From a bacterium (lineage in GTDB: Bacteria; UBP18; UBA7526): a stretch of 64,000 nt of DNA. The DNA lies in contig JAUWYL010000003.1 of NCBI GenBank assembly GCA_030615855.1, forward strand, positions 1 to 64,000, read 5' to 3'. The stretch's first letter is position 1. Every line of letters starts with the position of its first letter. Shown here in pieces: positions 39,628 to 40,800 of this stretch. A model generated the notes under the pieces. That model was not told the DNA's origin. It searched no databases and was given only the letters and a program-made list of their open reading frames with translations. The position numbers and the translations under genes were made by a program.

Positions 39628-40470
39628 TTAATCTTTTATCTCATAGGTCAAAGTGATGGGACGACCGCCCCTCTCTACTTCCACACTGATGATCGGTCTA
39701 TCCTTCACCTCTTTATACATCTGAATAGCCCTCTCAATACTGTCCAGCCTCTGGCCCTCAACCCCTTTGATGATATCTCCATCCCTCACGCCCAAGCTCT
39801 CAGCCAAGCTCCCCTTCTTGACATCATCTAACCTGAAGCCTCTTATCTGACCAGCCTCTAAGTAAGGTGCAACCTTCACCTGGGCAAGGAGCTGGTTGGG
39901 GTTACTGATCACTGAGGTGAATTTACTTCTGGAAAACGACCATCTATTGCTGGCCACCTTTTCCACCAAACGGGAAGTATCAGAAGTCATACCAGGAAGA
40001 AAGTTCTCACCATAAACTGCCAGGGAGACCAGACCGGCTGAGGTCTTCAAGACAACATGGTCTCTCTCAATCTTGACTATCTCATTTTCCCCTACCAAGT
40101 CCCCTTTCTTGTAGACTTCCTCCTTCTTAGTATCAGGATCCTCAATGATGCATAGGGATTCCAGGCCCTCTACGACAATGGTCCCCTTCAGTTTTAGATT
40201 CGATACTATACCAGGTAGGGTTTCCAATAGCCCTTCTTCAAGTGAGACCCCTTCTTCCCCAGCAGCAAAGAGATTTCTTTCTATAATAATAGAATAATGT
40301 TCATAGAGCCTGGGTTCCTCTTTCACTTCCTCTTTTCCTGGAGGAAGCGGAGGAGGCTTAGGAACCGCTACCTTTCCCACGCGGGCAAAGGAAAGGGAGA
40401 TATCAATAATAATGGTAAGTGCGATAACGATGAGAACTACATTCAGGATCAGAAAATATTTCTTCAGCAT
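39628..40470 (-). CDS. gspC: T2SS subunit GspC (PDZ type)
   Basis: 280 residues: N-terminal membrane helix (about 9-30), a proline-rich linker, the homology region that binds GspD N0 (about 60-160) and a C-terminal PDZ domain (about 205-275, G-D-I-I-K-G-V-E-G-Q). GspC links the inner-membrane platform to the secretin. It starts 19 bases after the tRNA-Asn 3' end and is the first protein gene of the operon. Confidence 0.9.
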   Translation of the reverse strand: MLKKYFLILNVVLIVIALTIIIDISLSFARVGKVAVPKPPPLPPGKEEVKEEPRLYEHYSIIIERNLFAAGEEGVSLEEGLLETLPGIVSNLKLKGTIVVEGLESLCIIEDPDTKKEEVYKKGDLVGENEIVKIERDHVVLKTSAGLVSLAVYGENFLPGMTSDTSRLVEKVASNRWSFSRSKFTSVISNPNQLLAQVKVAPYLEAGQIRGFRLDDVKKGSLAESLGVRDGDIIKGVEGQRLDSIERAIQMYKEVKDRPIISVEVERGGRPITLTYEIKD

Positions 40471-40489: not shown

Positions 40490-40800
40490 TGGCTCCGGAG
40501 GAGGGATTCGAACCCCCGACCAAGTGGTTACAGATTCTCTCCAAATTTCTTTAGAGTCTGGACTCTCTCTTTCCCGTGTCCCATCTGGCTCTGCCAGACA
40601 GGATTTAGGGAGCGGGTGTATAGTCTCTGCACGTTCCCTCCGAAGCTTTAGCCTAGGAGGGCTTCGCTCAGGATTACCTTACCCGCCGATGAGACGGGGT
40701 TAGGCTTCCCTGAATTAGCCCGCTTTTTCAATCCGACTTTCGACGGAAAGCTGCAACTTTCTGGTTACAGCCACCTGCGCTACCACTGCGCTACTCCGGA
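40490..40800 (-). tRNA. tRNA-Asn (GTT) interrupted by a group I intron
   Basis: Exon 1 (40800-40767) and exon 2 (40530-40490) join to a normal 75-nt tRNA. The acceptor pairs TCCGGAG with CTCCGGA, the D arm is GCGC-AGTGGTA-GCGC, the anticodon stem is GGTGG with CCACT around the loop CTGTTAA (anticodon GTT), the T arm is GGGGG-TTCGAAT-CCCTC, and an encoded CCA follows. Without splicing no cloverleaf forms. The intron falls between the second and third anticodon bases. A perfect promoter lies directly upstream, and gspC follows. Confidence 0.95.
40531..40766 (-). ncRNA. Group I (IC3-like) self-splicing intron, 236 nt, in tRNA-Asn
   Basis: P1 pairs exon GGCTGT plus AAC with the internal guide GTTGCAGCT, placing the required U.G wobble exactly at the 5' splice site. 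The core reads TTCAGGGAAGCCTAA (40715-40701, P4 side), AAGGTAATCCTGAGCGAAGCC, then GTGCAGAGACTATA (40632-40619, P7) and AAAGAGAGAGTCC (40572-40560, P7 partner). These match, almost base for base, the core I recall from the Anabaena tRNA-Leu(UAA) intron. The intron ends in G (40531), as group I introns do. It carries no homing-endonuclease ORF. Confidence 0.93.

Follow-up and report, generated by a model that had tools for sequence, protein, structure and literature searches.

Group I introns in bacterial tRNA and rRNA genes are listed in reviews (PMC3984707), and the work on tRNAscan-SE 2.0 places them in fMet and Ile2 tRNAs (PMC8450103). A 2021 paper mentions tRNA group I introns in CPR genomes (PMC8172020), and a 2025 preprint, as far as its citation in PMC12641178 conveys, concerns Patescibacteria and a new site of insertion into tRNA. 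The known bacterial tRNA introns (PMC8450103, PMC3984707, PMC5733544) are, like the one described here, compact group I introns of the anticodon loop, but they reside in other host tRNAs. The Patescibacteria/CPR introns (PMC8172020; the preprint as cited in PMC12641178) are likewise tRNA group I introns of small-genome bacteria. No paper naming a bacterial tRNA-Asn group I intron was found in a literature search that had most subscription journals outside its reach.

In the 64,000-nucleotide stretch of DNA that we analysed (the window), the minus strand carries at 40800-40490 a tRNA-Asn(GUU) gene with an encoded CCA, whose anticodon is interrupted by a 236-nt group I intron; the exact limits of the gene, 40490-40800, coincide with those assigned in a first-pass annotation of this DNA. 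This group I intron in tRNA-Asn is real, apparently intact and not unique, and the broader family of tRNA-Asn introns with HNH endonucleases is a more interesting result than the single copy.

A tRNA-Asn gene split within its anticodon

Read from the sequence, exon 1 (TCCGGAGTAGCGCAGTGGTAGCGCAGGTGGCTGT, 40767-40800, minus strand) covers tRNA positions 1-35 and ends in C32 U33 G34 U35, and exon 2 (TAACCACTTGGTCGGGGGTTCGAATCCCTCCTCCGGAGCCA, 40490-40530, minus strand) runs from U36 to the encoded CCA. Between them, at 40531-40766 of the same strand, lies the intron, which starts with AACCAG and finishes with AATCTG, including the terminal G, and which is supported by Rfam, covariation and a syntenic copy in G003, a genome from another genus of the same bacterial family. 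The joined exons are identical at 75 of 75 bases to the intronless tRNA-Asn(GUU) of the same-genus genome G001, where ARAGORN calls this 75-mer as tRNA-Asn(gtt). This identity sets both the product and the splice sites, after U35 and before U36, so that the insertion point is between anticodon bases 35 and 36, and it bears out the earlier proposal that the two exons rebuild a tRNA-Asn(GTT) with encoded CCA. From the interrupted gene at 40490-40800 ARAGORN returns no tRNA, as had been anticipated for a standard tRNA finder.

Other ways of reading the junctions were rejected. Excising exactly one unit of the CTGTAACC direct repeat that occurs at both junctions gives a 6-nt anticodon loop and an invalid anticodon. 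A target-site duplication explains the repeat less well than guide pairing does, since a shared guide could pair in turn with intron AAC, as an extension of P1, and with exon 2 UAAC, as P10. An archaeal bulge-helix-bulge intron is ruled out by the full group I core.

Just upstream of the tRNA, at 40844-40816 on the minus strand, is a sigma-70 promoter (TTGACA-17-TATAAT with an extended -10 TG) that matches the consensus at 12 of 12 positions. Downstream, the ORF list places at 39628-40470 (minus strand) a putative general secretion C-like gene ('gspC', a name suggested by its sequence and by the secretin-like ORF after it), whose start codon lies about 20 nt past the tRNA. Given this promoter and this short distance, the tRNA probably heads a secretion operon and is co-transcribed with the gspC-like ORF, and the gene order is common to G003 and the same-genus genome G002.

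Fold and conservation of the intron

The Rfam group I model (RF00028) matches 40776-40539 on the minus strand over its full length (model positions 1-253) and scores 81.9 bits where the gathering score is 50 (window E = 2.8e-19), and this intron is its single match in the whole genome (E = 1.4e-21). Together with covariation and the sister tRNA, this match, from the very scan that the first-pass annotation had named as a check, upholds its reading of an IC3-like group I intron splitting tRNA-Asn(GTT) between anticodon bases 2 and 3.

The P3-P9 core is present with its P7 pseudoknot, and all of the following helices lie on the minus strand. P1 (40749-40772, 9 bp in the cmscan alignment) pairs exon GGCUGU and intron AAC with the internal guide GUUGCAGCU and sets a U·G pair at the splice site. 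P2 (40732-40747, by inspection) has a GAAA tetraloop and a single U·U mismatch. P3, P4, P5, P6 and the 5' strand of P7 form the catalytic core at 40608-40724 (cmscan and the covariation alignment), followed by an extended P8 hairpin at 40573-40610 and, at 40539-40564 (cmscan and covariation), by the 3' strand of P7 and P9, again with a GAAA tetraloop. By inspection, the guide GUUG is able to pair with exon 2 UAAC as a candidate P10. The minimum-free-energy fold alone recovers P1, P2, P3, P4, P6, P8 and P9, and none of 100 shuffled sequences is as stable (z = -5.4).

Introns of subgroup IC3 are small, sit in tRNA anticodon loops, lack P5abc, P7.1 and P7.2, and carry GNRA loops on P2 and P9. Inspection of the structure finds each of these traits here, and by structural features we class the intron as IC3-like. 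The ORF list holds no ORF of note, and no homing endonuclease, within the 236 nt.

For covariation, P1-P9 were drawn on this intron and their pairs counted in an alignment of 28 same-site introns from other bacteria. Paired cells amount to 82.6% (70.3% in shuffles) and pairs with two-sided changes to 49 of 70 (36.6 in shuffles), and the drawn structure outdoes every one of the 500 shuffles in each of five measures, a control that ignores relatedness. When partners are slid, pairing falls to 32-52%, a comparison that somewhat favours the drawn structure because the drawing was made from one of the aligned sequences. By helix, pairing reaches 88% of cells in P3, 99% in P4, 100% in P7 and 97.6% at the base of P8; in P2, all five counted pairs have two-sided changes and 95% of cells are paired. 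The guide GCAGC, the U·G of P1 and the whole of P7 are invariant across the 28 introns, and P7 thus attests conservation, not covariation. The U·G at the 5' splice site and the terminal G noted in the first-pass annotation are both present and equally invariant, with search pattern and parse partly dictating the terminal G and the splice-site U.

Proposed splicing and rival readings

We regard it as highly probable that this is a working self-splicing IC3-like group I intron at anticodon 35/36 of the one tRNA-Asn(GUU) gene that was found in this genome, and infer the chemistry and efficiency of splicing, and dependence on this gene, along the following lines. The precursor would be transcribed from the promoter at 40844-40816, and exon GGCUGU would pair with the internal guide GCAGC(U) in P1. 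A guanosine bound in P7 would attack after the U of the U·G pair, and the freed exon 1 would then attack after the terminal G, with exon 2 aligned by P10 (guide GUUG with exon 2 UAAC), to yield a normal tRNA-Asn. As we propose it, normal tRNA-Asn would arise only via splicing, so that all decoding of AAU and AAC would depend on it. An essential decoding tRNA whose sole found gene relied on a ribozyme would show how far such introns are tolerated.

A genome-wide tRNA covariance-model scan of this small genome's draft assembly (45 contigs, 93.6% complete) gives 39 matches, and those read with ARAGORN include no second tRNA-Asn; likewise, a pattern search of the genome for an Asn 3' end with GCCA finds nothing besides this locus. 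The search for another intact tRNA-Asn that had been suggested earlier thus came back empty, and tRNA-Asn is likely single copy, rather than provably so at this completeness. The same scan is devoid of tRNA-Ser, tRNA-Ile(GAT) and tRNA-Ala(TGC), which may reflect gaps, scan filters or further interrupted genes.

These figures are also what lends some room to the idea that the intron is inactive and the locus a pseudogene, the cell being served by another tRNA-Asn that the assembly lacks: the assembly is incomplete, the three other expected tRNAs are unlisted as well, and G002 has a disrupted original gene with a new tRNA-Asn inside it. We nevertheless consider this very improbable, as the exons form a flawless tRNA identical to a gene of the working type, the core, the splice-site pair and the promoter are all intact, and decay would not preserve compensatory pairs. 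Metagenome-type drafts may also misjoin pieces, but an assembly or binning artefact has a negligible chance of explaining the insert when two different genomes have the intron at the gspC locus and the exons are those of the expected tRNA.

Related introns in the bacterial family and beyond

Close relatives were represented by five other genomes of the bacterial family and by none from the rest of the order, class or phylum. In G003 the same intron sits in tRNA-Asn at the syntenic secretion-gene locus; this copy, which a contig end truncates and whose exon 2 contains an N gap, is about 85% identical to ours over 156 nt, with changes that keep P9 paired. The intronless tRNA-Asn of G001 lies at a different locus and is therefore a moved or paralogous empty allele, not a strict empty site. 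In G002 an insert interrupts the syntenic tRNA-Asn and holds both a GIY-YIG endonuclease-like ORF and a different, intact and intronless tRNA-Asn (L056, about 1380-2100); it looks as though a mobile element had carried in a replacement tRNA. In G005 an intact tRNA-Thr(TGT) lies between two decayed tRNA-like halves (L060, about 1500-1700), and in G006 an intact tRNA-Asn lies beside a decayed tRNA-Asn copy holding inserted TCCCGAA/TTCGGGA hairpins (L054, near 1500-1900).

Beyond the bacterial family, a pattern scan combining the 3' strand of P7, the terminal G, U36-A-A and the T arm hits at least 116 genome stretches. Among 121 parsed loci, viral contigs included, 99 read GTT, and after removal of one false pairing and two viral loci there remain at least 96 tRNA-Asn introns at 35/36 in other bacterial genome loci, spread over many phyla. 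The novelty implied in the first-pass annotation for such an intron does not hold in view of this number and of the CPR tRNA introns already in the literature. By the titles of their records, the hosts include Omnitrophota, Nitrospirota (among them Nitrospira moscoviensis), several CPR/Patescibacteria lineages, Chloroflexota, Bacillota (Clostridia), Bipolaricaulota, Melainabacteria, Bdellovibrionota, Myxococcota and Planctomycetota; within Omnitrophota, the strict pattern is found in 34 of 285 sampled genomes and the reversed pattern in none. ARAGORN calls no tRNA at three loci of these relatives, including that of N. moscoviensis, and annotation and completeness checks may overlook tRNA-Asn in many phyla.

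The tRNA, the insertion point, the guide GCAGC, the U·G pair, the terminal G and the core of these same-site introns are all as in the window, but a length of about 550 nt and an HNH endonuclease ORF are common among them, whereas the window copy is 236 nt and ORF-less. By eye, from the motif LEFHH...CANCH, about 28 same-site introns of 499-689 nt contain an HNH-type ORF of about 105-170 aa; of three that were scanned, two pass the Pfam HNH cut-off and one is without a Pfam match. On account of these ORFs, the tRNA-Asn intron family is probably mobile.

Separate and recent arrival of the intron by homing in this genome and in G003 could account for the intronless tRNA-Asn genes of G001 and G002, and it agrees with the HNH endonucleases of related introns and with an intron tree that mixes several phyla. 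In that same tree, however, our intron and that of G003 are sister rows (support 100/99) from the same locus, and at about 85% identity they have diverged no further than the neighbouring gene (78%). A protein search of the family genomes also revealed no related HNH gene, a result of little weight as the search had no positive control. We therefore judge separate homing unlikely, and descent from an ancestor shared with the related genus most likely; on the simplest reading, the intron is old in the bacterial family and was lost or replaced in some members. Our preferred reading of the window copy is as an old representative, immobile and lacking an ORF, of a tRNA-Asn intron family that is widespread and mobile. 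A fuller version of this picture, which we advance tentatively, is that of a broad, anticodon-specific tRNA-Asn(GUU) family, previously undescribed as such, that would have spread through more than ten phyla, cultured Nitrospira included, by an intron-borne HNH homing endonuclease (probably in the P1 loop), with the window copy as an endonuclease-free, vertically kept survivor. The wider family offers a culturable organism for the study of splicing and homing.

Five other RF00028 matches in 60 sampled genomes have flanks unlike tRNA insertions, and a phage collection gave no match to this intron. Among the tRNA-Asn introns, those of L102, L174 and L187 (Nitrospirota and Bipolaricaulota) carry about 35 additional nt of hairpin-like sequence between the 5' strand of P7 and the 3' strand of P3, and one Clostridia genome (G062, contig 2) has two intron-bearing tRNA-Asn copies, at 70528 and 143573.

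The scan also touched other tRNAs. In L095 (Chloroflexi), L154, L164, L166 and L182, introns follow ...GGCTCA (four loci) or ...GGCTCG (L164), with exon 2 TAACC; joining the exons by this parse gives a CAT or CGT anticodon, and a base other than T precedes the split, which leaves the splice site in doubt. In acetic acid bacteria (L123, L138, L141, L145 and L176, including Brytella, Gluconacetobacter and Acetobacter), tRNA-Lys(TTT) is interrupted at 35/36 by a group I-type intron about 210 nt long. Phage introns were reportedly confined to protein genes in a 2014 review; five virus-classed contigs of 67-212 kb (L189-L193) have group I-type introns at 35/36 of tRNA-Asn and tRNA-Lys, L191 encoding an RIIB-like protein and the intron of L190 a PD-(D/E)XK endonuclease.
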